Origin: Sulfurimonadaceae bacterium
GTDB taxonomy: Bacteria; Campylobacterota; Campylobacteria; Campylobacterales; Sulfurimonadaceae
Reading direction: 5' to 3'
Assembly (NCBI GenBank): GCA_028683835.1
Contig: JAQUHB010000004.1
Span: 1 to 64,000 of the forward strand
Length of the DNA stretch: 64,000 bases
A program made the translations under genes and the position numbers. The number at the start of each line of letters is the position of its first letter. The first letter of the stretch is position 1. Under the pieces are notes generated by a model. It made no database searches. It saw only the letters and a program-made list of their open reading frames with translations, and was not told the DNA's origin. Of the stretch, positions 13,189-43,769 are shown piece by piece.

Positions 13189-13242
13189 GTTGGTGTTTTC
13201 TCCTGTTTTTGTTGCCGACATTTTAAAGTGTGATGATTACAC

Positions 13243-25005: not shown

Positions 25006-26311
25006 TATTCACAGTACATAAAAGTTTTGTGCCCGCAAGGGAAGTGATAGTAGCCTGATAGATCTTTCCAAACTCTAAATCTTCGTCAAATTCTCTATCA
25101 GTCACATAAAGTTCGCCGTCGATCTCAGGAGCCCATGCAAGCTCTTTTGCGCTGAGAATATATTCGCTCTCTTCGCTTTCACCGTCAATCACGATAGAAA
25201 CAGTTTTACCGATCTCTTTTTCAAGACTTTTTAGCTCACATGCAGAAGCGATTTTTCCAAGGATTTTCGCACGTTTTTCGATCGTTTTTTTATCTATCTT
25301 GTCACTCATCTCATAAGCCGGAGTCGTCTCTTCGTCCGAATAGCTAAACACATTGATACGGTCAAAACCAAAAGATGCCGCAAAATCGCACATCTCATCA
25401 AACATTTCTTGAGTCTCGTTTGGATGTCCGACGATGAAGCTTGTTCTTAAAAATGAGTTTGGAAGCGCCTTCATCGCATCTAAAAGCTCGATAGTCTTCT
25501 CTTTGCCAAAACCGCGTTTCATCATACGAAGCATCTCGTCGTTGATATGTTGGATCGGCATATCGAAATAGTTCTGGAAAATTTTAGATTTTCCAATGTT
25601 TTGGATCAGTTTTAGAGAGGTCGTCGATGGGTAGAGATACAAAATTCTTGCACTTTTTACACCCTCGATAAGCTCGATACGGCTGATCAGAAGGGAAAGT
25701 CCATCGATCGTTTTTTTGTCTCTTAGGTATGAAGAACTATCCTGAGAAACAAAGCTGAAATCGTAATACCCTTTTTTCACAAGTCCTTCTACTTCTCTTG
25801 CCACAGAGTCAAGTGAACGGGAATTGAGCTTACCTTTGAAAGAGGGGATCGCACAAAAACTACATGTCTGGTTACAACCCTCTGAGAGTTTGATGTATGC
25901 GTGATAAGTAGAACCCGTGACCACGCGTTCAGCGCCATCTATGAGGTATACTTCTTCAGAAAACTGAGATTTTTTACTTGCCAAAAGCTCATCGATACGT
26001 TCATAATCGCCCACACCCGTAAAGAGATCGACTTCTGGCATATCTTGGACGAGTTCAGCTTGATAGCGTTCACTTAGGCATCCAGCCATGACAAGTAATG
26101 AATCCTCTTTTCTTGCATCATGAAGATTTAAAATCGTATTGATTGATTCCTCTTTTGCCGCGTCGATAAATCCGCAGGTATTGACGATGATGACATCGGC
26201 GTCACTTTGATCTTGGGTAAGTTCATAGTTTTGTAATCGTCCCATCATCACTTCGGTATCGACAAGGTTTTTCGTACATCCCAAAGAAACGATGTGTAGT
26301 TTTTTGCTCAT
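24998..26311 (-). CDS. rimO: Ribosomal protein uS12 methylthiotransferase RimO
   Basis: 437 residues with the same three-domain layout as MiaB, but the N-terminus (IVSLGCTKNLVDTEVMMG) and the radical SAM motif CNQTCSFCAIP are those of RimO. It adds a methylthio group to an aspartate of ribosomal protein uS12. A C-terminal TRAM domain (about 370-437) is present. It is co-transcribed with tilS downstream. RimO and MiaB therefore flank the pilus-like genes in this region. Confidence 0.93.
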   Translation of the reverse strand: MSKKLHIVSLGCTKNLVDTEVMMGRLQNYELTQDQSDADVIIVNTCGFIDAAKEESINTILNLHDARKEDSLLVMAGCLSERYQAELVQDMPEVDLFTGVGDYERIDELLASKKSQFSEEVYLIDGAERVVTGSTYHAYIKLSEGCNQTCSFCAIPSFKGKLNSRSLDSVAREVEGLVKKGYYDFSFVSQDSSSYLRDKKTIDGLSLLISRIELIEGVKSARILYLYPSTTSLKLIQNIGKSKIFQNYFDMPIQHINDEMLRMMKRGFGKEKTIELLDAMKALPNSFLRTSFIVGHPNETQEMFDEMCDFAASFGFDRINVFSYSDEETTPAYEMSDKIDKKTIEKRAKILGKIASACELKSLEKEIGKTVSIVIDGESEESEYILSAKELAWAPEIDGELYVTDREFDEDLEFGKIYQATITSLAGTKLLCTVNNA

Positions 26312-26458
26312 ATTTTTTCACTTTTTAAAAAATTTTACCATCATCTGCATGGATGGTTTCATTAGGCGAAATTATATCCAATTCGTGAAGATGTTGTCTG
26401 ATGATTGTTTTACTTCTTCTAGAATAAATAAATTATAAAGAGAAAAGGAATAGTATAT

Positions 26459-27238
26459 ATGACAAAAAATATGATAGATACAAGAGTTCCACGGATTATT
26501 GTGTTATATTGGATCATCAAGATCGCTTCTACGACGCTGGGTGAAACGGGTGCGGATATGTTTTCTATGACTTTTGATCTTGGATATGCGACGACTATTT
26601 TTATCTTCATGATCACTTTTTTAGTATTTTTAGGGATTAAACTTTCTCTTAAACGCTATGAACCGCTTACATATTGGCTGACCTTTACTGCTACGGCGAT
26701 TGTAGGTACTGCGATATCGGATTTCATCGACCGCACGCTTGGACTTGGATATGCTGTGGGTTCACTTGTTCTGGTTTCTCTACTTGGCATCGTCTTGTAT
26801 CTGTGGCATCGCATTGATGGAACTCTCTCTGTTGAAAAGATATATAAAACCTCTTCGGAACTCTACTACTGGATCGCATTTTTGATCGCAAATACTCTTG
26901 GTACGGCGGCGGGAGATTTCTTGGCGGATGATCTTGGCATCGGTTTTGTGCAGAGTGCGACGCTTATCTCCATAATGCTTGTGAGTCTGGTCGTGCTTAA
27001 TTACTACACAAAGATATCCAAGATATTTCTCTTTTGGCTGGCTTTTGTCCTCACGCGTCCCTTTGGCGCGACCTTTGGAGACTTGCTTACAAAACCTCTT
27101 GATCACGGCGGACTTGATCTTGGAACAGTGGGTTCATCGGCATTTTTTATGGCGGTCTTAGTCTTGGCGCTGATCTTTGAGATCAATTATGAGAAGATAC
27201 ACCACTATAGAAAAAGAGTGTTTTTCAAGAGAGATTAA
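26459..27238 (+). CDS. COG4705 multi-repeat membrane protein
   Basis: 259 residues with about eight hydrophobic helices in four related repeats. Each repeat has a Gly-x-x-x-Asp signature: TTLGETGAD, VGTAISDF, LGTAAGDFLADDLG and FGATFGDLL. This is the pattern of COG4705 membrane proteins, function unknown. An AAGGA ribosome binding site lies 9 bases before the ATG. It is followed, 36 bases on, by an MsrQ-like gene. Confidence 0.8.
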   Translation: MTKNMIDTRVPRIIVLYWIIKIASTTLGETGADMFSMTFDLGYATTIFIFMITFLVFLGIKLSLKRYEPLTYWLTFTATAIVGTAISDFIDRTLGLGYAVGSLVLVSLLGIVLYLWHRIDGTLSVEKIYKTSSELYYWIAFLIANTLGTAAGDFLADDLGIGFVQSATLISIMLVSLVVLNYYTKISKIFLFWLAFVLTRPFGATFGDLLTKPLDHGGLDLGTVGSSAFFMAVLVLALIFEINYEKIHHYRKRVFFKRD

Positions 27239-27262
27239 AAGCTACTTTGAGAAATAATACTC

Positions 27263-27268
27263 TATAAT
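27263..27268 (+). promoter_or_regulatory. -10 box of the MsrQ-like gene
   Basis: TATAAT ends 6 bases before the ATG at 27275, so the transcript would start at or close to the A of the start codon. No ribosome binding site is visible. A leaderless mRNA is likely if this box is used. Confidence 0.5.
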
Positions 27269-27274
27269 TGCGCC

Positions 27275-27877
27275 ATGAGAACACTAATCACACTTTTGGC
27301 TTTAATGCCTCTTTTTTATATGTCATTTCGTTACTCCTTTTCGCTTGGCTGGCATTGGCCAAGCAGTGTGGCTGATCTTTTTAGCAAATATCTGCATATC
27401 ACTATCGGCGGATATCCTACCGATTTTTGGAAGTTTGTCCAAGATGTGAGTGCAAAAACCGCGCTGAATCTTTTCATCATCACACTTGCTATCAAACCTC
27501 TACGTAATATTCTAACAATCGATTTTTTAAAGTATAGAAAAGAGCTGGGGCTTTTTGGATTCTTTTATGTGCTCTTTCATGTAAGTGTTTTTATCGGTAT
27601 AAAACATCATTTCGACTATCATGAAATATATGGTGCGATGCAAGAGCACCTGTTTTTATGGTTTGGATTTGCGGCATTTTTGATCTTTCTTATGATGGCA
27701 ATTACTTCAATACCGTTTCTGTTTAAACGTCTCTCCTCTTGGCATAAGCTTTTTTATTTTGGGATGGTACTTGTGATGATCCATTTTCTCCTCGCGCAAA
27801 AAGAGGTTTCAATGGATGAGATCATATATGTTGCGGTGATATCGGGACTTTTATCTCTTCGACTTTTAAAGCGTTAA
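27275..27877 (+). CDS. MsrQ-like heme-binding membrane protein
   Basis: 200 residues with about six transmembrane helices of the ferric reductase-like family. Conserved His residues lie in LFHVSVF, HEIYGAMQEH, SSWHKLFY and MIHFLL. MsrQ passes electrons to MsrP, a periplasmic methionine sulfoxide reductase. No msrP is adjacent, so the partner may be remote or this may be another ferric reductase-like subunit. The gene is followed, after one base, by a flavoprotein gene. Confidence 0.7.
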   Translation: MRTLITLLALMPLFYMSFRYSFSLGWHWPSSVADLFSKYLHITIGGYPTDFWKFVQDVSAKTALNLFIITLAIKPLRNILTIDFLKYRKELGLFGFFYVLFHVSVFIGIKHHFDYHEIYGAMQEHLFLWFGFAAFLIFLMMAITSIPFLFKRLSSWHKLFYFGMVLVMIHFLLAQKEVSMDEIIYVAVISGLLSLRLLKR

Positions 27878-27878
27878 A

Positions 27879-29036
27879 ATGTATGATGTTTTGATCCTCG
27901 GCGCGGGAGCGAGCGGGCTGATGTGCGCGGCTGAACTTTCCACTTGCAAGGGTATAAAAGTCGGTGTGATCGATGCAAATGCAAATGTCGGCGCGAAGAT
28001 AAAGATATCGGGTGGCGGAAAATGCAATATCACAAATACACAGGTAAGTGAAAAAAACTATCTCGGCGATGAGAGTTTTGTCGCTTCTGTACTTTCACGT
28101 TTTACAAAAGAGGATCTTTTAGGGTTCTTACATGCCAATGGCTTAAAACCAGTGATTCGTAAAAATAGATATTACTTTTGCCAAATAAGCAGTGACGAGA
28201 TCATCTCTATTTTCCGTCGTTTGACGAAAAATACAAAATATCATTTAGGTGAAACTCTCTTAGATGTAAGTCAAAATATAGAGTGTTTTACAGTCAAAAC
28301 CTCAAGAGCCGAGTACAGAGCTAAAAATCTTGTCATAGCAACGGGCGGAGTAAGCTACAAAACTCTTAACGCTACGGATATAGGGATCCAGATAGCCAAG
28401 CAGTTCGGACACGAAGTCACCGAGTTTACACCGGCACTTGTGGGTTTAACACTTCAAAAAGATCAGTTTTGGATGAAAGAGCTCAGCGGGATAAGTGCCG
28501 AGGTAGAGATAGAAGTGGAGGGCAAAAAATTGCGAGAAGAGATGCTTTTCGCGCATCGCGGTATCAGCGGACCTGCGATTCTGAGTGCTTCGCTTTACTG
28601 GAAAAAGGGAAATATGTTTATCAACTTTTTGCCGGATCATGACATTAATATACTAATAAAAAACTCCAAAAAAAATATCTCTTCGGTTTTAAATCTTTCC
28701 AAACGCCTCTCGAAAGCTTTGCTTGAAGCCTTACATGTAGAGGATAAGCCCTGCAATAAACTTACACGTGAAGAGTTGCAAAATCTTCAAGTTATCCAAA
28801 AATATCCTTTCGCACCGGCAGGAAATTTTGGTTTTACAAAAGCCGAGGTCAGCCGCGGCGGGGTAAAAACAGAAGGCTTACATGGTAAGAGTATGATGAG
28901 TAAAAAAGTGGACGGACTCTATTTTATAGGCGAGGTCACCAATGTCACGGGAGAGCTTGGCGGATACAATTTTCAGTGGGCATTTAGCAGCGGAGTCGTT
29001 TGCGCAAGGGAGATAAAATCGCGTTATAATTGTTGA
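27879..29036 (+). CDS. BaiN/RdsA (HI0933)-family FAD flavoprotein
   Basis: 385 residues with an N-terminal dinucleotide-binding motif LGAGASGLMCAAEL and the family signature SGGGKCNITNTQ. Near the C-terminus is GGYNFQWAFSSG. HI0933-family enzymes are uncharacterised flavoproteins or reductases; the role here is unknown. It begins 1 base after the MsrQ-like gene and is probably co-transcribed. Two or three near-copies of the TTACATGTAA word lie in it (around 28137, 28730 and 28877). Confidence 0.85.
   Translation: MYDVLILGAGASGLMCAAELSTCKGIKVGVIDANANVGAKIKISGGGKCNITNTQVSEKNYLGDESFVASVLSRFTKEDLLGFLHANGLKPVIRKNRYYFCQISSDEIISIFRRLTKNTKYHLGETLLDVSQNIECFTVKTSRAEYRAKNLVIATGGVSYKTLNATDIGIQIAKQFGHEVTEFTPALVGLTLQKDQFWMKELSGISAEVEIEVEGKKLREEMLFAHRGISGPAILSASLYWKKGNMFINFLPDHDINILIKNSKKNISSVLNLSKRLSKALLEALHVEDKPCNKLTREELQNLQVIQKYPFAPAGNFGFTKAEVSRGGVKTEGLHGKSMMSKKVDGLYFIGEVTNVTGELGGYNFQWAFSSGVVCAREIKSRYNC
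29025..29030 (+). promoter_or_regulatory. -10 box of the P-type ATPase gene
   Basis: TATAAT lies inside the last codons of the BaiN-like gene, 26 bases before the ATPase start, with AAGGAG next to the ATG. Confidence 0.45.
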
Positions 29037-29055
29037 AATCTCTTAAGGAGTTTTC

Positions 29056-31617
29056 ATGGCAGAAAAGTTGACAGGTCTTAGTGCCAAAGAGGTAGAAGAA
29101 CGAATAAAAGAGTATGGTTTCAATGAGCTTGAGGAAAAAACCCAGAGCTGGGCTTTACGCTTGTTTAGAAGATTTTGGGGACCTATCCCGTGGATGATAG
29201 AAATTGCTGTCATTCTTTCAGCCATTGCAAAAAAATGGGAAGATCTCATTATCATCCTTGTACTGCTTTTTGTCAATGCAATAGTCGATTTTTATCAGGA
29301 ATCCAAAGCGCTAAGTGCCATAGCTGTTTTAAAAAATAGGTTGGCAAGAGGGGCCCTTGTTTTTCGTGATGATATTTGGCAGGAGATCGATGCCAAAATG
29401 GTTGTTCCTGATGATATTATCAAGATAAAGATAGGTGATATCGTAGCTGCGGATGTAAAACTTCTAGAGGGTGATGAAGCGCTTTTGGTCGACCAGTCTG
29501 CACTCACGGGTGAGTCACTTCCTGTATATAAAAATATTGGAGACGAGTTATATGCAAATGCTATTATAAAGCAAGGCGAGATGATAGCACGTGTGACAAA
29601 GACCGCCAAAGAGACCTATTTTGGAAAGACTGTCGGACTTGTCGCAAAAGCACAGCAGGAAGAACATAGCCATTTTCAAAAAATGGTGATCAAAGTGGGC
29701 AATTTTCTAATAGCATTGACATTGTTAATGATAGTCATCATCATCTATCATGGCATCAAAACTGGTCAGCCAACTATGGAACTCCTTATCTTCGCCCTTG
29801 TCCTCACTATCTCTGCTATTCCTGTTGCAATGCCAGCTGTTTTAACCGTTACTATGGCAATAGGTGCGCGCGCTCTCTCAGCAAAAGATGCAATCGTCAG
29901 TCGCCTTTCTGCCATAGAAGAGCTCGCGGGAATGGATATTTTATGTTCAGATAAAACAGGGACACTGACACAAAACTCTATGAGTTTGGCAGAGCCATAT
30001 ATGACTGGCAACTATACTACAGATGAGTTGATATTGTATGCGATGTTGGCTAGTAAAGAGGAAAATAATGATCCCATAGAAAAGCCCATTTTCGAGTATA
30101 TGCGTAAAAATTCTATAGAAGATAAAAGAGTATATTATAAACTGCAAAAGTTTCTTCCTTTTGATCCTGTACATAAACGGACTCAAGGTTTTTATAAGAG
30201 TGACAAAAATGAGATTATCGTGACAAAAGGTGCTCCGCAAATCATCATCGCACAGTGTGATGATAAAGAGTTTGATGTTAAAGAGGCATTGGTTCAAGTG
30301 GAGCTTTTTGCATCTCGCGGGTTTAGAACACTTGGAGTAGGATACAAAAGTCCAGAAGAGGAAAACTATCATTTTGTCGGATTGATTCCTCTTTTTGATC
30401 CGCCTCGTGAAGATTCAAAAGAAGCCATAGAAGCTGCACGTGCCAAAGGTGTGTCCGTTAAAATGATCACTGGCGATAATATCGCAGTCGCGAAATATAT
30501 ATCAAACCTGCTTAGCATCGGTGAAAATATCGAAGATATCCATATCCTAAAAGGGGAGTCTTTAGAAGAATATATCTACCTGTCAAAAGTTTTATCCGGA
30601 GCAATCGTAAAGAATTTGAATCCCGATGAAGCTAAAGATGAGGTGGATCAAAGAGTTGCCGATATTTTAAAAAATGTGCAAAAAGAGCTTTATAATATGC
30701 CGCTTCCAAAAGGAGGCGTTGCCAAACATGAATCGGAGATCATTGCTATTATCGAAGAAGCAGACGGCTTTGCGCAGGTATTTCCAGAAGATAAATATTT
30801 TATCGTAGAAAAACTTCAAAAGGCGGATCATATCGTAGGCATGACGGGTGATGGCGTCAATGACGCTCCTGCACTTAAAAAAGCGGATTGCGGTATCGCG
30901 GTGAGCGGTGCAACCGATGCTGCGCGCGCGGCGGCTGATATCGTACTTATGGCTCCCGGTTTAGGGGTGATCACGGATGCTATAGACGAAGCGCGACGTA
31001 TTTTTGAGAGGATGAAAAGTTACACAACTTTTCGTATTGCAGAGACGATACGCATCGTTGTATTTATGAGTCTTGCTATTGTGTTTTATGATTTTTATCC
31101 GGTCACTGCGTTGATGATCATTATTTTGGCACTTTTAAACGACATTCCTATTATGACGATAGCCTATGACAATACAAAAGTAAGAGTAAAACCTGTCAGA
31201 TGGGATATGAAAGAGATTTTTGTACTTGCAATTTGGCTTGGACTTGCCGGAGTCATCTCCTCATTCTTACTTTTTTGGTATCTCATGTCGGTTCTTGATT
31301 TTAAGCTTGCGTTTATTCAAACGCTCTTTTTTGCAAAACTTGTTATCGCAGGGCATGGAACTATCTACAATACAAGGGTGGATGACTGGTTTTTTAAACG
31401 TCCATATCCATCTTTAAAACTTTTTGCAGCTACTTTTGCAAGTCGAATTATTGGAACTGTGATCGCTATTTATGGCTTTGGTTTTATGGAACCTATCGGT
31501 TGGAGATGGGCCGCAGCGATGTGGGGATATGCGCTTGTGTGGTTAGTATTTAATGATATTGTTAAAATGGGAGTATTAAAATACTATAGGAGGTTGTATC
31601 ATAAAGAGGTGATTTAA
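29056..31617 (+). CDS. P-type proton-translocating ATPase (type IIIA-like)
   Basis: 853 residues. Motifs: N-terminal cation-ATPase domain, actuator TGES (ALTGESLPV), phosphorylation site DKTGT with Asp299, nucleotide-binding KGAPQ, and GDGVNDAPALK. Transmembrane helices are grouped as in plasma-membrane proton ATPases, with no N-terminal metal-binding domain. The region before VFPEDKYFIV contains an insertion of about 60 residues (LNPDEAKDEVDQ...). It should pump protons out at the expense of ATP. Such pumps occur in several acid-facing or marine chemolithotrophs. It has its own -10 box and terminator. Confidence 0.9.
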   Translation: MAEKLTGLSAKEVEERIKEYGFNELEEKTQSWALRLFRRFWGPIPWMIEIAVILSAIAKKWEDLIIILVLLFVNAIVDFYQESKALSAIAVLKNRLARGALVFRDDIWQEIDAKMVVPDDIIKIKIGDIVAADVKLLEGDEALLVDQSALTGESLPVYKNIGDELYANAIIKQGEMIARVTKTAKETYFGKTVGLVAKAQQEEHSHFQKMVIKVGNFLIALTLLMIVIIIYHGIKTGQPTMELLIFALVLTISAIPVAMPAVLTVTMAIGARALSAKDAIVSRLSAIEELAGMDILCSDKTGTLTQNSMSLAEPYMTGNYTTDELILYAMLASKEENNDPIEKPIFEYMRKNSIEDKRVYYKLQKFLPFDPVHKRTQGFYKSDKNEIIVTKGAPQIIIAQCDDKEFDVKEALVQVELFASRGFRTLGVGYKSPEEENYHFVGLIPLFDPPREDSKEAIEAARAKGVSVKMITGDNIAVAKYISNLLSIGENIEDIHILKGESLEEYIYLSKVLSGAIVKNLNPDEAKDEVDQRVADILKNVQKELYNMPLPKGGVAKHESEIIAIIEEADGFAQVFPEDKYFIVEKLQKADHIVGMTGDGVNDAPALKKADCGIAVSGATDAARAAADIVLMAPGLGVITDAIDEARRIFERMKSYTTFRIAETIRIVVFMSLAIVFYDFYPVTALMIIILALLNDIPIMTIAYDNTKVRVKPVRWDMKEIFVLAIWLGLAGVISSFLLFWYLMSVLDFKLAFIQTLFFAKLVIAGHGTIYNTRVDDWFFKRPYPSLKLFAATFASRIIGTVIAIYGFGFMEPIGWRWAAAMWGYALVWLVFNDIVKMGVLKYYRRLYHKEVI

Positions 31618-31670
31618 AATAACTTATCATACTTGAAGGTGAGCTTCTTTTGCATTATTACCTAAAGTTC

Positions 31671-31700
31671 AGCTCTATTAAGAGCTTCTCTTTTCTTCTC
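31671..31700 (+). terminator. Terminator of the P-type ATPase gene
   Basis: AGCTCT (31671-31676) and AGAGCT (31681-31686) form a short stem with a 4-base loop, followed by a T-rich run (TCTCTTTTCTTCTC). The stem is short, so confidence is moderate. Confidence 0.5.
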
Positions 31701-31754
31701 TTGTAAATATTTATAAAATTTATTCTTTTACTTTTAATTTAGGTATGGAAAGTG

Positions 31755-31760
31755 TATAAT
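31755..31760 (+). promoter_or_regulatory. -10 box of pckA
   Basis: TATAAT, preceded by G at the extended -10 position, 52 bases before the pckA ATG. No clear -35 box. Confidence 0.55.
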
Positions 31761-31811
31761 TTCAAACTTAAAATGTTTTTATAGACATTGCAAAACCAAT
31801 GAAGGCAAAAT

Positions 31812-33395
31812 ATGATTGATTCTACACATTTAGAGCAACTTGGACTACAAAATATAAATAAAATATACCATAACCTTAGTTATGACGAGTTGATTCAACA
31901 TGAACTTGATAATGGCGAATGTAGTATGACAAGCAGTGGTGCTACTACCGTAGATACAGGTGTTTTTACAGGCCGCAGTCCTAAAGATAAATATTTTGTC
32001 AATCAGGAACCGTCAAATAAATATATTGCTTGGGGAGATGTCAATCAAAAGATCGATAAAGCTATTTTTGATGAACTCTTCGAACTTTCCAAATCTCAAC
32101 TTTCACACAAAGATCTTTATGTAACTGACGTATTTACAGGTGCAAGTCCTGCAAGTAAGCGTTCTATCCGTTTTATTACTGAGATTGCGTGGCAGTCTCA
32201 TTTTGTGACAAATATGTTTATCCGTCCTACAAAAGAAGATCTTAAAACTTTTAAAGCTGACTTTACAGTTTTTAATGCTTGTAAAGCGGTCAATGAAAAG
32301 TGGCAAGAGCATGGTCTTAACTCTGAAGTATTTGTTCTTTTTAATATTGAAGAAAATATGGCGATTATCGGCGGTACTTGGTATGGTGGTGAACTCAAAA
32401 AAGGGATTTTCTCTATGATGAATTATTGGTTACCATTAGAAGGAAAACTCTCAATGCATTGTTCTGCAAATATAGGAAAAGATGGCGATACAGCACTTTT
32501 CTTTGGTTTGAGCGGAACAGGTAAAACAACCCTTTCTACAGATCCGCAACGCCGTCTTATTGGTGATGATGAACATGGCTGGGATGACGAAGGTGTATTT
32601 AATTTCGAGGGTGGATGTTACGCTAAAGTGATCAATCTTGACCCATCAAGTGAACCTGAAATCTTTGGTGCGATCAAAAGAGGGGCACTTTTGGAAAATG
32701 TCATGTTTGACTGTGAAGGTGCTGTTGATTATGCTAGTTGTGTAAAAACTGAAAATACCCGTGTTTCTTACCCAATCGAACATATAGAAAACCATGAACC
32801 GTCTTTAATGGGTGGACATGCTCAAAATATTATTTTCTTAACAGCGGATGCTTTTGGTGTTCTTCCTCCAGTGAGTAAACTTTCTAAAGAACAGGCAATG
32901 TACTACTTTTTAAGCGGCTACACAGCAAAAGTTGCTGGAACTGAACGCGGGATTACTGAGCCGGTTGCTACTTTTAGCGCTTGTTTTGGAGAAGCATTTT
33001 TACCGCTACATCCAACAGTATACGCAAAACTTCTTGGTGAAAAGATCGATAAACATGGCGTGCATGTGTATCTTGTAAACACTGGCTGGAGTGGTGGAGG
33101 ATATGGTGTTGGTAAGCGTATGAGCATCAAAGATACTCGTGCTTGTATCAATTCGATCTTAGATAGTAGTATCAATGACTGCGAGTTTGACAGAACAGAT
33201 ATCTTTGGTTTGGAGGTTCCAAAAACTCTTGGAGATATCAATCCAAGTGTTTTAAATCCTCGTAATGCATGGGAAGATAAAGTGGCTTATGATGCTACAA
33301 CAAAGAGGCTTGCGGCTATGTTTATCAAAAACTTTCAAAAATATCAAACTGAAGACAGTGCTTTTGATTTCTCAGAAGCTGGTCCAAAAGGTTGA
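31812..33395 (+). CDS. pckA: Phosphoenolpyruvate carboxykinase (ATP)
   Basis: 527 residues. Family motifs: ATP-binding P-loop [29 protein letters not shown] and [16 protein letters not shown]. It converts oxaloacetate and ATP to PEP, CO2 and ADP in gluconeogenesis; in chemolithoautotrophs it feeds sugar synthesis. Arg-rich FTGRSPKDK near the N-terminus binds the substrate. The gene is followed by the convergent proC, with a hairpin between. Confidence 0.95.
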
Positions 33396-33401
33396 TCTTC
33401 T

Positions 33402-33444
33402 AAAAAAAACTTTTACATGTAAGCCATTTTGCTTACATGCGAAG
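33402..33444 (-). terminator. proC terminator built from an inverted pair of TTACATG words
   Basis: CATGTAAGC (33416-33424) and GCTTACATG (33431-33439) form a perfect 9-bp stem with a 6-base loop. On the minus strand it is followed by TAAAAG and eight T (33409-33402), about 26 bases after the proC stop. The arms are the exact TTACATGTAA copy (33413-33422) and the variant CTTACATGCGAAG (33432-33444). This resembles the way uptake-sequence pairs form terminators in Neisseria and Haemophilus. Confidence 0.75.
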
Positions 33445-33469
33445 TACCCCGTAAATGTAGAGCTATATT

Positions 33470-34231
33470 TTATAATTCTGTCGCTTTTTTATATGCAGCT
33501 TCTATTGCTTTTATACAACCGTTTCTTACACCGTTTTCTTCTAAGGCGCTATATCCAGCAGCCGTTGTCCCCCCTGGACTCATAACAGCATCTTTTAAAA
33601 GAGCAGGGTGAATATCTTGAATTATTGCACTAAAACCTAAGAAAAGTCCGCGCATCAAACTCATTGCATCATCACGTTTAAGCCCTTGCTTAACTGCACC
33701 ATCTGCCAATGCCTCTGCCATGAGCGCTAGGAAGGCAGGTCCACTTCCTGCAAGCGCTGTAGCGATATCAAGCTCTTTTTGTGAAGATACCCACAGAGTT
33801 AGTCCAATAGCACTAAATATCGTGATAGCTTCATTCATGCAAGTAGTTTCACCAGTCAATGTAGTCATAGACTTTCCAATATTTGCTGCAAGATTTGGCA
33901 TCGCTCTTACATAATTTTTAGCTTGAATATTGAGCTTTAGTTTTTCTATGGTTGTGCCGGCAAGAACAGAATAAAGAGTCTTGGCTTCACCTAAGATAAG
34001 TGTTTTCATAGCTGTGATATTTGCAGGTTTGACACACAGAATAAGCGTTTTATCGGTTGCATCGAAGTTTGCAAAAAGGGTTTTTGTGATACTTTTTTGT
34101 AGCTTTTCCTCAAAGCTGATGAGCTTTTGCATATCTCTTCCGACAAGTTCTATGTCATATTCTGAAATAAGACCAGCAGCAATGGCATATGCCATATTTC
34201 CATTACCAATAAGGGTGATTTTTTCTTTCAT
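33470..34231 (-). CDS. proC: Pyrroline-5-carboxylate reductase
   Basis: 253 residues with an N-terminal Rossmann NADP-binding motif (IGNGNMAYAIAAGL) and the family signature near the C-terminus (DAVMSPGGTTAAGYSALEENGVR). It makes proline from pyrroline-5-carboxylate. It lies 3 bases downstream of fliW on the same strand, so the two may be one transcript. An uptake-like word hairpin follows. Confidence 0.92.
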   Translation of the reverse strand: MKEKITLIGNGNMAYAIAAGLISEYDIELVGRDMQKLISFEEKLQKSITKTLFANFDATDKTLILCVKPANITAMKTLILGEAKTLYSVLAGTTIEKLKLNIQAKNYVRAMPNLAANIGKSMTTLTGETTCMNEAITIFSAIGLTLWVSSQKELDIATALAGSGPAFLALMAEALADGAVKQGLKRDDAMSLMRGLFLGFSAIIQDIHPALLKDAVMSPGGTTAAGYSALEENGVRNGCIKAIEAAYKKATEL

Positions 34232-34234
34232 GAT

Positions 34235-34618
34235 TTAATCTTTTTGTAAAAAATTTGATAGTTTTTCGGAGACTCCGTAAGGGGAATTGTCAGCTAGGAT
34301 CACTTGCAACATAGTACCGTTGTCTGTATTGAAAACAAGTGGACCTACAAAATTTATATATGAATCTTCAATCGGAGTTGCGACGATAAGCATATTGTAT
34401 ACGAGAAAATTTGTAGTTTCACTAATCTCAAGGAGTTCCTGAACAGCCGAGGAAATATCAATATTATATTCACGCAGAACAAAGGGATTTATTAGGGTAA
34501 AAGATGGTTCATTAGCATCTAAAACTTGAAGTCTTGCAAAAACATCATCTATCGTTTTTAGCTCCATCTTTGTGATGTTTTCAAAACCTAACAACGGACT
34601 TTTTAACTCAAATATCAT
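34235..34618 (-). CDS. fliW: Flagellar assembly factor FliW
   Basis: 127 residues starting MIFELKSPLLGFE, the typical FliW start; an in-frame start 21 codons upstream reads through non-family sequence. FliW binds the translational repressor CsrA and is released by flagellin, tying flagellin synthesis to secretion. A TACAAT -10 box lies upstream. The downstream partner is proC, an unusual pairing; csrA is not in the window. Confidence 0.88.
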   Translation of the reverse strand: MIFELKSPLLGFENITKMELKTIDDVFARLQVLDANEPSFTLINPFVLREYNIDISSAVQELLEISETTNFLVYNMLIVATPIEDSYINFVGPLVFNTDNGTMLQVILADNSPYGVSEKLSNFLQKD

Positions 34619-34648
34619 AAGTAAACCTTTAAAATGAACAGTAATATT

Positions 34649-34654
34649 ATTGTA
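34649..34654 (-). promoter_or_regulatory. -10 box of fliW
   Basis: TACAAT on the minus strand, 30 bases before the fliW ATG at 34618. No clear -35 box. Confidence 0.4.
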
Positions 34655-34743
34655 GCACATTTGCAGTAATTTAGTTGTCACTTAATGTAGGGTAACAATT
34701 ATTTTCGATAAAATAACACTCTTAACAAAAAGAAGGATTTATT

Positions 34744-35499
34744 TTGATACTAACAAAAACATTATTCCCATTGCTTGTGATTTTTGTTATCTTTACTGGA
34801 TGTAGCAGTAAGGATGATGATGAATATAACAAACCAGCGACGTACTGGTATTCTAAAATCGTTGAAAGTGTCTCGATAGGCAACCTCGACAAGGCAGATA
34901 ACTACTACAGTTCTCTTCAAGGTGAGCATATAGGATCACCTCTGCTTCGTGAAGCAACACTTATTTTGGCAGTCGCACACATGCAAAATGATGAGTATAT
35001 TTTAGCTGATCACTTTTTAGATGAATATATCAAAAGATATGCAAATCCAAATGAAAAAGAGTATTCAGAGTATATGTCTGTAAAAGCAAAATATCTCGCT
35101 CTTCCACATCCTCGTCGTGATCAAGCAGGGATAGATGATGCAATACAAGCTTCGAAGAACTTTAAAATTAAATATCCGAATTCTATATATTATCCACTTG
35201 TAGACATGATGCTCACAAAACAGTATCTAGCGCAAGCGGCACTAAACGAGAGTATAGCATCGCTTTATGATAGGGTCGACAAGCCAAAAAGTTCAAAGTA
35301 TTACAGAGGTCTAGAAAAAGAAGAATGGATAAAATGGGATGAGATCAATCGTGAAAAAAGTGCTTGGTATAGAGAGTGGTTTGAGGGTGATGGAACTTCG
35401 AGTTGGTATGATTTTATGATACCAAAAACACAAAGTGTTGTTTCAAGAAATCGTCTTCAAGGCGACGATAATGTTACAGATGAAGGAGCAAAAAAATAA
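34744..35499 (+). CDS. bamD: Outer-membrane assembly lipoprotein BamD
   Basis: The 251-residue precursor has a lipobox (VIFTGC). Four to five TPR-like helix pairs follow, including FLDEYIKRYANPNEKEYSEYMSVKA and SKNFKIKYPNSIYYPLV, as in BamD/ComL. BamD links BamA to the other Bam lipoproteins in outer-membrane protein folding. Its stop overlaps the lon start by one base. The bamD-lon order is common in Campylobacterota. Confidence 0.88.
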   Translation: MILTKTLFPLLVIFVIFTGCSSKDDDEYNKPATYWYSKIVESVSIGNLDKADNYYSSLQGEHIGSPLLREATLILAVAHMQNDEYILADHFLDEYIKRYANPNEKEYSEYMSVKAKYLALPHPRRDQAGIDDAIQASKNFKIKYPNSIYYPLVDMMLTKQYLAQAALNESIASLYDRVDKPKSSKYYRGLEKEEWIKWDEINREKSAWYREWFEGDGTSSWYDFMIPKTQSVVSRNRLQGDDNVTDEGAKK

Positions 35500-37916
35500 T
35501 GCAATTAAGTAACTTTAGCGAGTTTCCTGCGAATATTCCCGTTATTGCTGAAGATGAAATATTTTTATATCCGTTTATGATTTCTCCACTTTTTTTAAGT
35601 GATGAGAAAAATATCGCCGCTGCAAATAAAGCTATGGATGAAAATACTTTAGTAATTGTATGTTCGACAAAGCCTGAACATGAGGGAAAAAGAGATTATG
35701 ATTCACTTTATAAAGTGGGTGTTATAGGTTCGATTATGAGAAAAGTAGCTCTTCCCGATGGAAGAGTAAAAGTACTTTTTCAAGGTCTTGCACGAGGAGA
35801 ATTACTTTCTCATGTGAGTGATGCACCTATGATTGCAAGTATAAATGTATTGCAATCGAGCGTGGCAAATGAACTTAGACTTGATGCTGTTTTAGAAGTT
35901 GTCAGAGAAAAAGTGCGTGCGCTTTCTCAGGTCAGCGGTTATTTCCCGCCTGATTTATTACGGACTATAGAAGACAATCATGAATACAATCGTATTGTAG
36001 ATCTTATATGTAGCAGTATTAAACTCAAAAAAGAGCAGGCCTATAAACTTTTTTCTGAAACAAATATAGAAGAGCGTTTTTTAATCTTAATAGACTATCT
36101 CATTGAAGAGATAGAAGCAAATAAACTTCAAAAAGAGATAAGAAGTAAAGTTCATTCTAAAATAGAAAAAGTGAATAAAGAGTACTTTTTAAAAGAGCAG
36201 TTAAAACAGATTCAAAGAGAACTTGGCGTTGATTCTCAGCGAGATGAAGAGATAGAAGAGTATCGCAAAAAGCTTATTGCTAAAAAACCTAAAATGGGTG
36301 AGGATGCTTATAAAGAGATCAATAAGCAAATAGAGCGTTATGCAAGAATGCATCCAGATTCTGCAGATGCTGGGATGATACAGAGTTACTTGGAATGGAC
36401 ACTTGATGTCCCATTTGGCGAAATGGCAAAAAAAGCGTTAAAAATAGAAAATGTTGAAAAACAGCTTGATGAAGATCACTTTTCACTGAAAAAACCAAAA
36501 GAGCGAATAGTAGAGTATTTTGCAGTGAAAGAGCTTCTTGAACTCAGAGGAAAAAAAGATGAAAATTCAGCTGGGGCGATCCTTTGTTTTAATGGACCTC
36601 CAGGTGTTGGTAAAACGTCTCTTGCAAACTCAATTGCAAAAGCGCTTCATCGTCCACTCGTGCGTATTGCGCTTGGCGGGTTAGAGGATGTTAATGAGCT
36701 TCGTGGACACAGACGTACTTATATAGGTGCGATGCCTGGACGTATCGTTCAAGGGATTATCGATGCTAAGAAGATGAATCCTGTCATCGTTCTTGATGAG
36801 ATAGATAAAGTTGCACGCTCTCACAGAGGCGATCCGACAGCTGTTTTACTAGAGATACTCGACCCTGAGCAAAATAAAGAGTTTAGGGATTATTATCTTA
36901 ACTTTAATATTGATCTTCGAGATATCATCTTCATTGCAACTGCAAATGATGTTGGAAGTATTCCAGCACCGCTTCGAGATAGAATGGAGTTTATTACGGT
37001 AAGCAGTTATACACCTCAAGAAAAATTTGAGATTGCAAAACGATACTTACTGCCTCAAGAGATCAAAAAGCATGGATTGAAAAACTCAGAACTCTCTGTT
37101 TCAAAACCAGCTTTGCAAGAGCTTATTCATAAGTTTACGCGTGAAGCTGGGGTAAGAAATCTTCGCCGTCGCATTGCAGACCTGACTCGTAAGGCCGCAA
37201 AGATACTGCTCCAAAATAAAGAGCTTACGAAAGTTTCTATTTCTGTAAAAAACTTAAAAGAATTCTTTGATAAGAGCGTTTTTGAGATTGAAAAAACTGA
37301 TAAAATCCCCGTCATTGGAATTGTGAATGGTCTTGCATGGACAAGTGTCGGTGGTGATGTACTTAAAATTGAGACTATACGTATTAAAGGCAAAGGAAAT
37401 ATGCAAATTACTGGAAGTCTTGGAGAGGTGATGAAAGAGTCTGCAAGAATCGCTTTAAGTGTTGTCAAAACACTTATTGATGAGGGAAAACTTGAAATTT
37501 CTGCTGAAAACATTCCTATGACATTTGAAGAAAAAGAGAAAAATATTAAGCTCGATGCCAGTGAAGTCTATAAAAGATACGACTTACATGTGCACGTTCC
37601 AGATGGTGCGACTCCAAAAGATGGACCGAGTGCTGGGATTGCTATGACAACGGTTATGGCGTCGATACTCAGTTCTAAAAAAGTTCGCTCAGACCTTGCT
37701 ATGACAGGTGAAGTTTCTCTTCGCGGAGATGTCCTGCCAATCGGAGGGTTGAAAGAAAAACTGATAGCTGCACATAAAGCAGGGATGACAAAAGCTGTGA
37801 TTCCTCAAAAGAATTATGAAAGAGACCTTGTAGATATTCCAAAAGAGGTTCAGGACGACATCGAGATTATCGGAGTTAAGAGAATAGAAGAGGTTTTAAA
37901 ATTAGCACTTATCTAA
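35499..37916 (+). CDS. lon: ATP-dependent protease Lon
   Basis: 805 residues in the LonA layout: N-terminal domain (about 1-200, LSNFSEFPANIPVIAEDEIFLYPFMI), long coiled coil, AAA domain with Walker A GPPGVGKTSLAN, and a protease domain whose serine-lysine pair lies in DGPSAGIAM and GLKEKLIAAHKAG. It degrades damaged and regulatory proteins in the cytoplasm. The N-terminal domain is a little shorter than in E. coli. Confidence 0.95.
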   Translation: MQLSNFSEFPANIPVIAEDEIFLYPFMISPLFLSDEKNIAAANKAMDENTLVIVCSTKPEHEGKRDYDSLYKVGVIGSIMRKVALPDGRVKVLFQGLARGELLSHVSDAPMIASINVLQSSVANELRLDAVLEVVREKVRALSQVSGYFPPDLLRTIEDNHEYNRIVDLICSSIKLKKEQAYKLFSETNIEERFLILIDYLIEEIEANKLQKEIRSKVHSKIEKVNKEYFLKEQLKQIQRELGVDSQRDEEIEEYRKKLIAKKPKMGEDAYKEINKQIERYARMHPDSADAGMIQSYLEWTLDVPFGEMAKKALKIENVEKQLDEDHFSLKKPKERIVEYFAVKELLELRGKKDENSAGAILCFNGPPGVGKTSLANSIAKALHRPLVRIALGGLEDVNELRGHRRTYIGAMPGRIVQGIIDAKKMNPVIVLDEIDKVARSHRGDPTAVLLEILDPEQNKEFRDYYLNFNIDLRDIIFIATANDVGSIPAPLRDRMEFITVSSYTPQEKFEIAKRYLLPQEIKKHGLKNSELSVSKPALQELIHKFTREAGVRNLRRRIADLTRKAAKILLQNKELTKVSISVKNLKEFFDKSVFEIEKTDKIPVIGIVNGLAWTSVGGDVLKIETIRIKGKGNMQITGSLGEVMKESARIALSVVKTLIDEGKLEISAENIPMTFEEKEKNIKLDASEVYKRYDLHVHVPDGATPKDGPSAGIAMTTVMASILSSKKVRSDLAMTGEVSLRGDVLPIGGLKEKLIAAHKAGMTKAVIPQKNYERDLVDIPKEVQDDIEIIGVKRIEEVLKLALI

Positions 37917-37929
37917 TAGCCTAGAGCTA

Positions 37930-38307
37930 TTAGAAAGAGAGTCTGCTTATTTGTTCTATGAGATCATGGGCACGAACAGGCTTCATTAAAAAACCATTTG
38001 CCCCACTTTCAAGAGCTTCACTCTTTTTTGTTTCATCTGTTGTTAGCATAATAATAGGTAATTGCTTTAGATTGTCATCAGCACGAACTATCTTTAGCAT
38101 CTCTATACCACCCATTACCGGCATAATTATGTCTAATAAGATAATATCTATATCACTTACAGACTTGAGTATTTCGATAGCATCGGTGCCATTCCTTGCT
38201 TCTAAAACTTCAGCTATATTATCCTGTTTTGTGAGCATAGACTTGAGCAGTTTGAGGTTGATCATATCATCATCAACTGCTAAAATTTTTAATTTTTTAT
38301 CTAACAT
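37930..38307 (-). CDS. CheY-like response regulator
   Basis: 125 residues, a single receiver domain: acidic pair in ILAVDDD, phospho-acceptor Asp in DIILLDIIMPVMGG, conserved Thr in MLTTD and Lys in FLMKPV. There is no output domain. It is the last gene of a run with a hybrid kinase and an Hpt protein, so it may be the end of a phosphorelay or act on the flagellar motor. Confidence 0.88.
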   Translation of the reverse strand: MLDKKLKILAVDDDMINLKLLKSMLTKQDNIAEVLEARNGTDAIEILKSVSDIDIILLDIIMPVMGGIEMLKIVRADDNLKQLPIIMLTTDETKKSEALESGANGFLMKPVRAHDLIEQISRLSF

Positions 38308-38321
38308 TTTTTAATCCTTGG

Positions 38322-41300
38322 TTAAACAAATTTTTCAAACACTAAACGCAATAAATCTTTATTTACGATATTTTTAATTATTTCATGCACATACAAAGCA
38401 TCAGTTTCTTCCGCTTCACTAGCAGGATCTACCATCATAACAAGGTAGATCTCTGAATCGAACTCTTTAATACTGCTTGCAAAATCAGCAAGATCAAGTC
38501 CGCTTAATTCTTTATCAAAGAGTGCTAGTTTATACCTATTGTGTTTGAGTTTCTCTTCCATATCAGCTACATTCTCCGCAATCTCATAAGTGTATCTTAG
38601 TTCTTCAAGCACACGTGCAAAGAGTTTTGTTTCAATCTTATTTTTCTTGGTTAACAAGATATCTGCTTTATATGCTTTTGGAACCATTTCTACTTTTTCT
38701 TCTAAAATTGCACTCTCTTGCGTTTCATTTTGAATTTCTTTCTCTTCTTTATCAGAGCTATCTTCAACTATCTCAGAAACTATTAACACTTCCTCTGAGA
38801 TTTTTTCAATCTCTGTATCTGCAATTATTTTCTCACTATCATTACTTGTATCGACAATTAAATCGCTTAGAAATTGATTTAAGATAGATACAATTTCAGA
38901 ACGTACTAAAGGTTTTGTGGTGTATTCATCTAACCCATGACTCAAAAAGCGTTCTCTGTCTCCTTTAAGAGCATTGGCTGTAAGGGCAATAATTGGAATA
39001 TGTGGAACATCGAAATCTTCTTCATAATCAAGGATTTCTTGAGTAGCTTCAACACCATCTAGAACAGGCATTTGAATATCCATAAATACAATATCAAATT
39101 TTCCACTTTTACGTTTTTGAAATGCTTCAAGTCCATTGTTGGCTAAAGTGACAGTTAAGCCTAAGTCTTCCAAAGTTCTTTTTATAAGTTTTTGGTTGAT
39201 GACATTGTCTTCTGCAACAAGAGCAGATGCCGCAAATTTTGAACTTTTTTCATCAAAGAGTTTTCGATGAGCTTTTTTATTTTTTTGTTCATTAAATGAT
39301 GATGCGTCATAATTTTCAAGAACTGATTTTAGCTTTGTTGAATTTAAAGGCTCATACAATGTTTTAAAAATATTAAGACCCAGTGTTTCAATCTTTTTCA
39401 TATAGTATGATTTTGTAATCAAAATCATAGCTTCTGGAGATTTACTAAAGTTTAATAAATCACTTTCATTAGAGAAATCGTAATCAATAAACAAGAGGTC
39501 ATAATTTATTTGTTGCTCAAGTTTATTTAACTCCGCAAGATCTTTGAATGAAGTATAGCTTACACCATAAAAATCTAAATACTCACGTAAATATTTACTC
39601 TGAGCTTTTGTTTTAACTGAAGAGTCAAGGATAAGGGCATTGATATTTGAAAATGAACCTTTATTGCTCTCATTAAGAGTTTCAATCTCTTCAAATTCAA
39701 GAGTAAAGAAGAAAGTCGTTCCATGACCGACTTCACTTTCTAGATCAAGGATACCGCCCATAAGTTCAACAAATCTACTCGAAATAGTAAGACCAAGACC
39801 TGTCCCGCCATATTTACGAGTAATTGATGTATCTGCTTGACTAAACGCTTCGAAGATACGTGATTTTTGTTCACTGGTAACACCAATACCACTATCTTGG
39901 ACTTCAAATTTTATTTTAATTTTACCGCTATTCTCAGATGCTATACGGCGGATATTCACATTAATGCTACCACCACTATTTGTAAATTTAACCGCATTTG
40001 AAAGAAGGTTGATAACAACCTCTTTGATCTTCGTTGGATCACCTTTAACAGGACGTTCTAAGTTTGGATCGATGTAACAGCCAAGGTCGATATGTTTTTC
40101 TGATGCGCGAACAGAATAAACTTCAACAGCACTTTCAAACTCTCTGATTGGATTAAATACGATCTCTTCAATTTCAAGCTTGTTGCTTTCAATTTTAGAG
40201 AGGTCTAAAATATTATTAATAATCTCAAGAAGATTTTCTGATGATTTTTCAATAATATCAATAAACTCTCTTTGCTCTGAAGAAAGATCCGTATCTTTTA
40301 AGAGTTCTGTAAAACCGACGATGCCGTTTAACGGTGTACGTATCTCATGCGACATATTTGCAAGAAACATAGATTTTGCTTCACTGGCTTCCATCGCATA
40401 CTCTTTATCATTACGAGTCTGTTCAATAATATCTTCTAGAAGTTGATAAGCTTGCGCTGTTCCTGAAGCTGTATCAAGGTTAATATTTCTATTTTCTTCA
40501 CCCTCTCCCGTATCTTTTGCAACACGTTTTAATACGGATTCGAGGTTTTTGATATTTCTAGCGATATCATTTGAAAGTAAAAATCCAAGAAGACCGATAA
40601 TTATCGAAATAAACCAGATAGAAATAGCAATTGCAAGTATTTGGATTGCATTTGTTTGAACGATTTTCGCTCTGCTATCCATCTCCTGTAAGATAACTTT
40701 TTTACCCTCTGTAATAACATTTTCTTTTTCAGAGAGCATAGTAAACCAGATACCTGATTCTGTATCATATTTCCCACTTTTTGCTACCTCTAGGATATTT
40801 GAACGCTCTTCTGTAATATCGCTACCGAGTTCAGCACTGTCATCACTTTTAAACAGAAGATCAAGCTTATTAGAAGTCGTTTTGTCAAGTTCTGAGTAGT
40901 TTATGGCGTCGGCTTTACCTATAAATAAGAGCCATTTGTTAATTTGTTCTGCTTCAAGCGGAGTTGAGCGAGCAAGGGTATAAGAGATATAATCACGCTC
41001 CGCTGCTGTATATTCTTGTGCGCGCACAAGTGAAAGATATGCTGTCGCAAGTGAAGAAATTTTTTCATCTACATGTATAAGAGCAATATTTTCAATTCTT
41101 GCTAAAATTGTCTCTTGTGCTTTACCATAAGTTTTATAGAAAATGGTATCAAAATCCACTTTTTGAGTATCTACTGCTCTTCTAACTTGGCTGATCTCTT
41201 GAAGAATAGATTTTATAGTAACACTGTTTTGACATGCTTGACAGTTTGCTGTTCCATGAGAATGATCGTGTAAATCAGTTAAAGTTCCAATGTTTGAGAG

Positions 41301-41582
41301 GTATTCTTTGGCACTTTTGTTTACTAACTCGCGTTGAGCCATAAGTGAGTTATGTGTTGTTTCAGACGCATTTCCAAGATACATAATAGTCATACCGCGT
41401 TCACGTGATATATTGTCAAGCAAGTGTGTTAAATATCTGTTTTCTTGTAACTTTGCTTGTAGTTTAGTCCCACCTTGATAGCTTATATATGCATTATAAA
41501 CATAATACGAAGCCAATGAAAAAAGAATAATAATTGGGAATAAACTTATTAGTCTTAGTCTGTTTTTGAGTCCTATTTGCAT
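38322..41582 (-). CDS. Hybrid histidine kinase with NIT-type sensor and receiver domains
   Basis: 1086 residues. Helix (about 10-30); periplasmic NIT-like sensor (about 35-305) with an unusual His- and Cys-rich insert ([13 protein letters not shown], near residue 105); helix (about 310-335); HisKA with [11 protein letters not shown], phospho-acceptor His412; ATPase domain; then three receiver-like domains. Only the middle one ([15 protein letters not shown]) is complete; the first and third lack the full acidic pair. NIT sensors respond to nitrate or nitrite in known cases; the ligand here is unknown. The double-Hpt gene follows upstream in the same operon. Confidence 0.85.
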
Positions 41583-41594
41583 TGTCCTAATTCC

Positions 41595-43286
41595 TTATAA
41601 TTGATTTATGAAGTTTTTCAAACGAATCAGTAATTGTTTCATCTCTTGTTTATCAGTTACAAATAAGAGATCTTTTAAAACTTGAGAGATTTTAGTTACT
41701 CTAAGATTATCCGCAGTTCCTTTTATATTCATGACAGTATCATATAAGGCAGTCTTATCGTTAGTTTCTACAGCTGTTTCAAGTACCTTTAGACGGGATT
41801 GAGCTTGTTCTTTAAAGTCTCCTAAAAGTTCTTCAATAAGATCTGAAGGTAAACCGAGCTCGTTGACAGCTGCTGATTTATCATAATCAAGTGTTTCAAG
41901 ATCTTCGGCTGGTGAGTTTATCTCTTCTGGAATCTTATAAAACTCTTCTTTGGAACCGACAAAATTATCTAAGTCATCTATGTCCAATATTTCAAGAGGA
42001 GACTCTTGTAGATTAGCAGGTTGCTCTTCATCAAGCATAAGGCTGATATCATAGATATCATCACCATCTGCCTGATGTGCTGGTGCTTGAACAGTTTCTT
42101 CCTCTTTATCAAAATCTTTTAATAAGAAGAGATCATCTTCTTCTTCGTTGGAAGTTTTAACTGCAGTAGAAATCTTTTCATCAGATATCTTTTCTGTATC
42201 TGGTTCTATTGGAAGCTCTTTGCCTTCAAGTTTAGAGATTATTTTATAGAAGTGGTCAAGTGTGGCTCTGATCTCATCCATGTTAGAGGAGGTGTTAATT
42301 ATACTCAATACTTCAAAAGCATCTTCAATTCTTAAGTTAGCCGCAACACCTTTAAGTTTATGAGATAAAAGTTTCAAATCACTTAATTCGTCATTTGCAA
42401 GACGAGTATAGAGTTCTTCTTTAAAGTCATATGATTGCTGGATAAAGTCACCAATGAATTCTTCAATAAGATCAACTGGTAAACCTAATTCATCAGATGC
42501 AACTTGTGGATTATAAACATAATCTTTACTCACATGCAGATTATTGATGTATTCAGCGTGTGTACTATCTGAAGAGATTGTATAATCTCCAAGCATCGGT
42601 TTTGTTTTTACTTTTTCATCTGAAATGTTTTGGACTTTTGGTTCTTCAAAAAGGGTTGGGGTATCTTTTGTTTGTTCATCAAACTCAGCAAATGCAAAGT
42701 CATTACCAATATCAAATTGTTCTTCATGAGTCTCGCTTGGGACATAGAGATCTTCTACCTCAAGTGGAGCATTGAAATCAAAATCATAAGGATCATTGAT
42801 GATATTGCGTACTGGAGGTGTTTCAAAAGGATCCGGTTCGCTAAGGACGACACCTTTTTCATTTTCAAAACCCGGCATGTATTCATGTTCAGACTCAAAA
42901 TCAATGTTTCCAGTAGGTGTCTCTGCCCGTGCTAGTTTACTTTCTTCTATCTCTCTGCCGTCTAATGCTTTAAGTTTCGCAAGAGTAATAGCATAAGCGA
43001 TCTGGCTTGGAGCATCATTTAAATAAATAGTTTCTATCTCAATTGTTGCGCTGAACTCTCTGTTCTTTGCATTGATGATAACTTTAGCTTCAGGGATATC
43101 TGAGTTTAAGATATAATAGATCCAATTAAAGTTTTTAAAATTATGAATATAAGTGGGTCTTTTAACAAATAAGTCGGCAAAATCTTTGCACTCATTTTGT
43201 AAATCTGCCAAGTTTCTAAATCCTAGACTCTTGAGATCTTTTTCGTTGATCCCTACAAACTCTTGCTGATGATTGTAAATAAGCAT
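41595..43286 (-). CDS. Two-Hpt phosphotransfer protein with PAS-like N-terminus
   Basis: 563 residues. N-terminal PAS-like region (about 1-115), a long acidic linker, then two Hpt domains sharing the LGLPxDLIEExxGDF lead: about 265-345 and 475-555. The first has the phospho-His (LLSHKLKG, His309). In the second the matching position is Met519 (TVMNIKG), so it probably cannot accept phosphate. The gene lies between the hybrid kinase and the PAS protein, so it likely passes phosphate to the CheY-like regulator. Confidence 0.8.
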   Translation of the reverse strand: MLIYNHQQEFVGINEKDLKSLGFRNLADLQNECKDFADLFVKRPTYIHNFKNFNWIYYILNSDIPEAKVIINAKNREFSATIEIETIYLNDAPSQIAYAITLAKLKALDGREIEESKLARAETPTGNIDFESEHEYMPGFENEKGVVLSEPDPFETPPVRNIINDPYDFDFNAPLEVEDLYVPSETHEEQFDIGNDFAFAEFDEQTKDTPTLFEEPKVQNISDEKVKTKPMLGDYTISSDSTHAEYINNLHVSKDYVYNPQVASDELGLPVDLIEEFIGDFIQQSYDFKEELYTRLANDELSDLKLLSHKLKGVAANLRIEDAFEVLSIINTSSNMDEIRATLDHFYKIISKLEGKELPIEPDTEKISDEKISTAVKTSNEEEDDLFLLKDFDKEEETVQAPAHQADGDDIYDISLMLDEEQPANLQESPLEILDIDDLDNFVGSKEEFYKIPEEINSPAEDLETLDYDKSAAVNELGLPSDLIEELLGDFKEQAQSRLKVLETAVETNDKTALYDTVMNIKGTADNLRVTKISQVLKDLLFVTDKQEMKQLLIRLKNFINQL

Positions 43287-43295
43287 GCTGATTCC

Positions 43296-43709: not shown

Positions 43710-43769
43710 ATAAAAAAACCTTAAATTCTAAGTTGGGGGTAATATAGCATATTCTCAACTAAAAATCAC

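Follow-up and report, generated by a model that had tools for sequence, protein, structure and literature searches.

Close pairs of an iterated palindromic word lie at gene ends and are predicted to form hairpins in a Sulfurimonadaceae genome and its relatives

Introduction

Pairs of the uptake words of Neisseria (DUS, GCCGTCTGAA) and of Pasteurellaceae (USS, AAGTGCGGT) act as terminators (Kingsford et al. 2007, PMC1852404; Frye et al. 2013, PMC3630211). In N. meningitidis, 231 hairpins are tabulated among about 1,900 words (PMC1852404), and the stems of Neisseria are reportedly long and carry fewer T in their tails (PMC1852404; PMC3630211). Simonsiella muelleri carries an overlapping dyad DUS (simDUS/kingDUS), and its dyad has been taken as a hint of dimeric recognition (PMC3630211). 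Iterated words of another kind, HIP1 (GCGATCGC) and the other HIPs, have methyltransferases as their known link (PMC4390886).

Here we describe the 10-bp palindrome TTACATGTAA, studied from a 64,000-nt stretch of DNA from a Sulfurimonadaceae bacterium (assembly GCA_028683835.1, contig JAQUHB010000004.1, positions 1 to 64,000; hereafter the window). It shares with DUS and USS the character of an abundant word of roughly 10 bp, mostly single and often in genes, whose close inverted pairs stand after genes, especially convergent ones, and are predicted to fold into stem-loops; the long stems with few T reported for Neisseria are another likeness. In contrast to DUS and USS, the word belongs to a different phylum and has a different sequence, the U-tracts of its pairs are weaker, its pairs per word are fewer (about 4-10%) than in N. 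meningitidis, and its uptake role is putative. Furthermore, TTACATGTAA is itself palindromic, so that any two copies make a hairpin. Dyad symmetry is common to TTACATGTAA and the S. muelleri DUS, but there two non-palindromic dialects overlap, whereas here one word dominates and is perfectly palindromic. As with HIP1, we are dealing with a short palindrome of very high copy number that is lineage-specific and mostly located in genes; the over-represented word, however, is TTACATGTAA and not the HIP1 core GCGATCGC, and gene-end hairpin pairs are prominent. A literature search on the word, on uptake sequences in Campylobacterota, Campylobacterales, and Epsilonproteobacteria, and on transformation, competence, and palindromes in Sulfurospirillum, largely without subscription papers, returned no description of TTACATGTAA, which is weak evidence of novelty.

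Results and Discussion

The hairpin between pckA and proC

The genes pckA (31812-33395, + strand; ATP-dependent phosphoenolpyruvate carboxykinase, PF01293 (PEPCK), E=1e-213) and proC (33470-34231, - strand; pyrroline-5-carboxylate reductase, ProC-like, PF14748, E=1e-33) are convergent, and the 3' end of proC faces a stem-loop at 33416-33439. The original prediction had placed a perfect 9-bp hairpin here, and this was borne out base by base: on the + strand the arms CATGTAAGC (33416-33424) and GCTTACATG (33431-33439) enclose the 6-nt loop CATTTT (33425-33430), giving CATGTAAGC-AAAATG-GCTTACATG when read on the proC strand. The stem lies 30 nt from the proC stop codon and starts 20 nt from the pckA stop. 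The arms had been attributed to two TTACATG words, and both are indeed there, but they are unequal. In the arm that is distal on the proC strand, the palindrome TTACATGTAA is complete (33413-33422); in the proximal arm, TTACATG continues with CG and not with TAA and makes just a half word (33433-33439, + strand; TTACATGCG). The eight T that were said to follow the stem on the proC strand are likewise present (33402-33409, A8 on the + strand), though not directly after the 9-bp stem, from which they are separated by the 6-nt gap TAAAAG.

In the predicted fold of the proC strand, an outer helix ACUU/AAGU closes this gap and extends the stem, such that its outer AAG runs directly into the seven or eight U. 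The fold reads ACUU-CG-CAUGUAAGC-AAAAUG-GCUUACAUG-UAA-AAGU and then the U-run, with an energy of -14.8 kcal/mol and a z of -5.4 for the 41-nt segment, and none of 200 shuffles was as stable. On the pckA strand, CGAAGTACCCCG follows the stem and there is no U-tract. The window has 25 inverted repeats that match perfectly over 9 bp and have a loop length of 3-15, against an average of 6.5 in 40 dinucleotide shuffles, and T7 within 16 nt of a 9-bp repeat was found in two (repeat, side) cases in the window and in none of the 40 shuffles. The pckA-proC hairpin came out on top of a terminator scan covering 25000-44000.

The pair at proC is present in the congeneric genomes G000, G002, and G001 with differing arms, including a long outer stem in G001, whose full-word pair indicates that the outer half of the word at 33433-33439 has been lost. 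The pair is worn in G003, reduced to a single word in G007, and absent from the congeners G004, G005, and G006. The proC hairpin is thus a genuine, if slightly worn, member of the paired-word hairpins described below.

The iterated word in this genome

The original prediction took the 7-mer TTACATG as the repeated unit, and it does occur 36 times in the window against 10.3 expected. This requires correction, as the word is the 10-bp palindrome TTACATGTAA. In 422 kb of this genome no other 10-mer is as over-represented: it is found 124 times on both strands (62 sites) against 1.2 expected, an over-representation of about 100 times. The 2.51 Mb genome holds 321 copies, and a reversed control gave 1. 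The consensus is CTTACATGTAAG, with C/T preceding and A/G after. We also considered extended flanks resembling the AT-rich tracts of Pasteurellaceae USS, but only weak preferences next to the core were seen, and TTACATGCGAAG was rejected as a second repeat with two copies only in 422 kb.

Single words are mostly found in genes (107 of 138 in G000, G007, and G003 together). In the window, those at 5870-5879, 24435-24444, 24546-24555, 50599-50608, 50888-50897, and 53872-53881 are each in a gene, and the one at 11937-11946 is intergenic, on the downstream side of the gene at 12010-13221 (- strand). Per kb, word density is 0.86 and 4.4 in convergent intergenic DNA versus about 0.1 in CDS, and divergent (promoter) regions are nearly word-free. 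Half words in the window are followed by GCGAAGTGC and GCGAAGTAC at 13324 and 33439; these bits are related to a much longer inverted repeat (TATACCCAAAGGGCACTTTACATGTAAGC...GGCTTACATGCAAAGTACCCTTTGGGTGTA) that surrounds a word pair at another locus (L220, around 2986).

Close word pairs at gene ends

Close pairs were sought with the pattern CATGTAA-N2-22-TTACATG, with the reversed pattern as control. This genome contains 19 pairs (reversed control 0), four congeners contain 27-45, and the word-richest genomes of g37 contain 50-65, compared to 0-1 in nearly word-free genomes; the reversed pattern gave no more than 1 in any of the word-rich genomes. The window has one more paired-word hairpin, at 17454-17477, in which AAAC separates two full words (TTACATGTAA-AAAC-TTACATGTAA); it lies 34 nt downstream of nusA (17509-18642, - strand).

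With simple ORF-based gene calls, 55 of the 66 distinct pairs in G000, G007, and G003 begin after a stop codon at a distance of no more than 30 nt, compared to 2.8% of random positions, and 23 of the 66 are this close to a stop on each of the two strands, compared to 0.2%. The nearest stop is mostly 4-22 nt from the pair. A sample of named genomes, which is largely separate from the three-genome set without being wholly independent of it (record JAHJGM matches G003), gave 64 of 78 pairs within 30 nt after a stop versus 3.6% at random, with only one pair inside a gene. The pairs also exceed what regional word density would produce in contiguous DNA, with 4 versus 0.9 expected in G000 and 7 versus 1.6 in G007, and none falls in CDS in the contiguous DNA of these two genomes. 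Inverted pairs are thus enriched at gene ends, as the original prediction had called for, in this genome, in two congeners, in Sulfurospirillum, and in other named relatives. Pairing is no automatic companion of the word, since G005 and G006 have 135 and 194 words yet 0 and 2 pairs. Few pairs are inside genes; in two congeners, a pair is located within the comEC CDS (G007:C1:409577-409607 and G003:C50:30321-30351).

The abundance of the word, the position of its pairs at gene ends, and the covariation and persistence of the stems (see below) are observed; from them we infer a part in termination or 3'-end protection and a primary function of the word, in an explanation that we consider probable. 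The proC hairpin is one of about 19 paired-word hairpins of this genome, almost all of which stand at gene ends and consist of two neighbouring copies of TTACATGTAA, with one copy at proC worn to a half word. When a gene ending 5-30 nt upstream is transcribed, the pair would fold into a 10-15-bp RNA stem. On the proC strand, where the stem is followed by the U-run, it most likely acts as an intrinsic terminator, and it would be among the better ones of the pair set; on the pckA strand, the same stem has no U-run and is more likely to block or protect the 3' end than to terminate strongly. The word itself would serve a genome-wide purpose, most likely DNA recognition in uptake or recombination, and gene ends would have co-opted neighbouring word copies as ready-made stems. 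If so, an iterated word has come to double as a gene-end hairpin once more, in a distant phylum and with a palindromic word.

Distribution among relatives and possible function of the word

We counted the word in 60 relatives and in 298 genomes of the phylum. There are 48-756 copies of TTACATGTAA per genome in the genus of the window, about 300-1,060 in three other genera of its family (g3, g5, and g6), raised numbers in only a few members of g2 (31, 96, and 340), and up to 1,496 in most genomes of family f20; elsewhere in the phylum the 298-genome scan found 0-10 copies, which is background. Named genomes with full pairs are mainly Sulfurospirillum (S. cavolei, S. arcachonense, S. diekertiae, and MAGs), along with MAGs of other Campylobacterales, which together with the copy numbers leads us to infer that f20 is the Sulfurospirillum family. 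Cultivated Sulfurospirillum, with about 1,000 copies, would allow both uses of the word to be tested directly. Two Pseudomonas matches to the pair pattern were AT-rich, isolated, and not near a stop and were treated as chance, and no viral contigs carrying the full pair were found.

The abundance of the word, its coding location, and its gene-end pairs resemble those of DUS and USS, and by this analogy uptake is the most attractive, albeit unproven, idea for its primary function. Paired hairpins alone are not proof of uptake. The symmetry of the word would imply dimeric recognition. ComEC (PF03772) is encoded in all 56 genomes tested, whether rich or poor in the word, and was therefore rejected as a marker of word use. 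A pilin-like protein of ~220 aa encoded beside a sucD-like gene (G007:C1:721153-721812, G004:C1:759823-760488, G055:C1:1900287-1900949, and G186:C1:1869174-1869776) was considered as the receptor and rejected, as the word-rich genomes G009 and G026 have no full-length homolog. This protein, which has a second match in some genomes, differs unusually strongly between word-rich and word-poor congeners, shows 45-55% identity between congeners against 85-97% for its conserved neighbours, and it appears to evolve fast for a reason other than a universal role as word receptor.

Other iterated words exist in the relatives G008, G085, and G025, but they do not vary around one core as the DUS dialects do. 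G008 (at L313-L322) and G085 carry the non-palindromic word CTGCGTGAG, with the core TGCGTGAG present in 962 and 757 copies (reversed controls 33 and 23) and at background level in other members of their genus. In 200 kb of G008, 96% of these words are in genes and none forms a close inverted or gene-end pair, showing that hairpin use is not inevitable for an iterated word. G025 (L363-L364) has a third word, ATGGCGTTT (TGGCGTTTA), with 218 copies versus 6 in the reversed control, and this word is mildly raised in G275 (132 versus 26).

The word could also be a palindrome of the HIP1 kind, kept by a DNA methyltransferase or by mutational bias and unconnected with uptake, in which case its pairs would be by-products that were later used as hairpins. 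This competes with the uptake part of our explanation and not with the hairpin part, and it draws on the likeness to the HIPs (PMC4390886), as the word is a short palindrome that is found mostly in genes, numbers from hundreds up to 1,500 copies, and is patchy by lineage. We nevertheless regard it as rather unlikely, because the iterated words of the relatives (TGCGTGAG and ATGGCGTTT) differ from TTACATGTAA and are non-palindromic, which is a better fit to uptake dialects. That some Campylobacterales use uptake words, namely the palindrome in the genus of the window, some related genera, and Sulfurospirillum and other words in relatives, and that word-pair terminators persist after a lineage abandons the word is a tentative proposal, to which we give somewhat less than even chances. 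Were it true, an uptake-word system would exist outside Neisseriaceae and Pasteurellaceae.

A probable RNA stem at gene ends

Pairing within the hairpins extends to inner stem bases beyond the word. Inner stem position 2 is paired in 30 of 44 hairpins of a first set, compared to 16.0 (sd 2.9) with shuffled partners, and in 54 of 67 of the named-genome set, compared to 37.9 (sd 2.4); position 3 is paired in 45 of 59 of the latter, compared to 33.8 (sd 2.4), and shows no excess in the first set, all of these covariation figures being guides since partner shuffling leaves relatedness in place. Orthologous gene ends, such as those of nusA, prfA, and htpG (assigned per proteins) and of some 40 more groups, keep the pair across species and genera while loops, flanks, and stem bases vary between them, and the stems include two-sided compensatory differences. 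The end of the nusA ortholog in G007 also bears a word pair. We additionally considered that single words at gene ends might form hairpins by themselves through extended palindromy, which was ruled out by the lack of outer pairing.

Word-poor genomes provide a further comparison. G186 has 11 pairs per 49 words versus 4.3% in four sister genomes (p = 8e-6) and G004 has 8 pairs per 48 words versus 6.9% in five congeners (p = 0.018), these being small samples with p values that treat sites as independent. With the same reservation, 5 of 13 in-gene word sites of G007 are identical in the word-rich G000 (control 11.8%, p = 0.013) and 3 of 13 in the word-poor G004, which is background (control 16%), whereas the aligned pair at 12692/12706 is intact in G004. 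Our reading is that the word-poor lineages gave up using the word across the genome and that the hairpins stayed useful. Species almost without the word but with the hairpins would then be a natural experiment separating the two uses.

Together, the covariation, the conservation at orthologous gene ends, and the persistence of pairs where coding words decayed support a separate role at transcript ends, such that a second use of the word in gene-end hairpins, as put forward in the original prediction, is well supported. The pairs could instead be DNA-level features, with side-by-side words better bound by a word-reading protein, be it an uptake receptor or a chromosome protein, and placed where gene-end DNA is free to change. 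The density of words in convergent intergenic DNA, their rarity in promoter regions, and the lack of a U-tract at most pairs would all agree with this. However, inner stem bases beyond the word covary, which a DNA-binding site would not need, most pairs stand just 4-22 nt from the nearest stop, and pairs outlast single words in word-poor genomes, making a purely DNA-level role improbable in our view. A mobile REP-like element inserting after genes would likewise be palindromic, extragenic, and repeated, but the copies share no common sequence beyond the words, their flanks and loops vary both between copies and between orthologous gene ends, and most single words are inside genes, leaving this origin very improbable. 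Finally, ordinary intrinsic terminators that look alike by chance in an AT-rich genome, as the classical stem and U-run anatomy at proC might suggest, are refuted by the counts: 19-65 pairs in most word-rich genomes against 0 or 1 in reversed controls, 0-1 pairs in nearly word-free genomes, and a word about 100 times over-represented.

Possible termination at word pairs

We return to the paired-word hairpin as an RNA element. The 8-nt tails of pairs on the sense strand contain at least 6 T in 27% of cases versus 11% at matched gene ends. In a stricter test on a contiguous sample, however, none of 10 word-pair hairpins at gene ends had at least 6 T in a 9-nt tail, meaning that classical intrinsic termination is not general; the other strong gene-end hairpins of the same sample are also mostly without U-tracts. 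Word-pair hairpins probably end or cap the transcript, and Rho-independent termination at them is likely but not general given that most pairs lack a good U-tract. Many pairs may have other roles, such as Rho-assisted ending, 3'-end protection, or the blocking of antisense read-through. At one locus (L203, 2058-2099), a gene is followed by three tandem words, CTTACATGTAAG-CTTC-CTTACATGTAAG-CTTC-CTTACATGTAAG, which could form two alternative hairpins.
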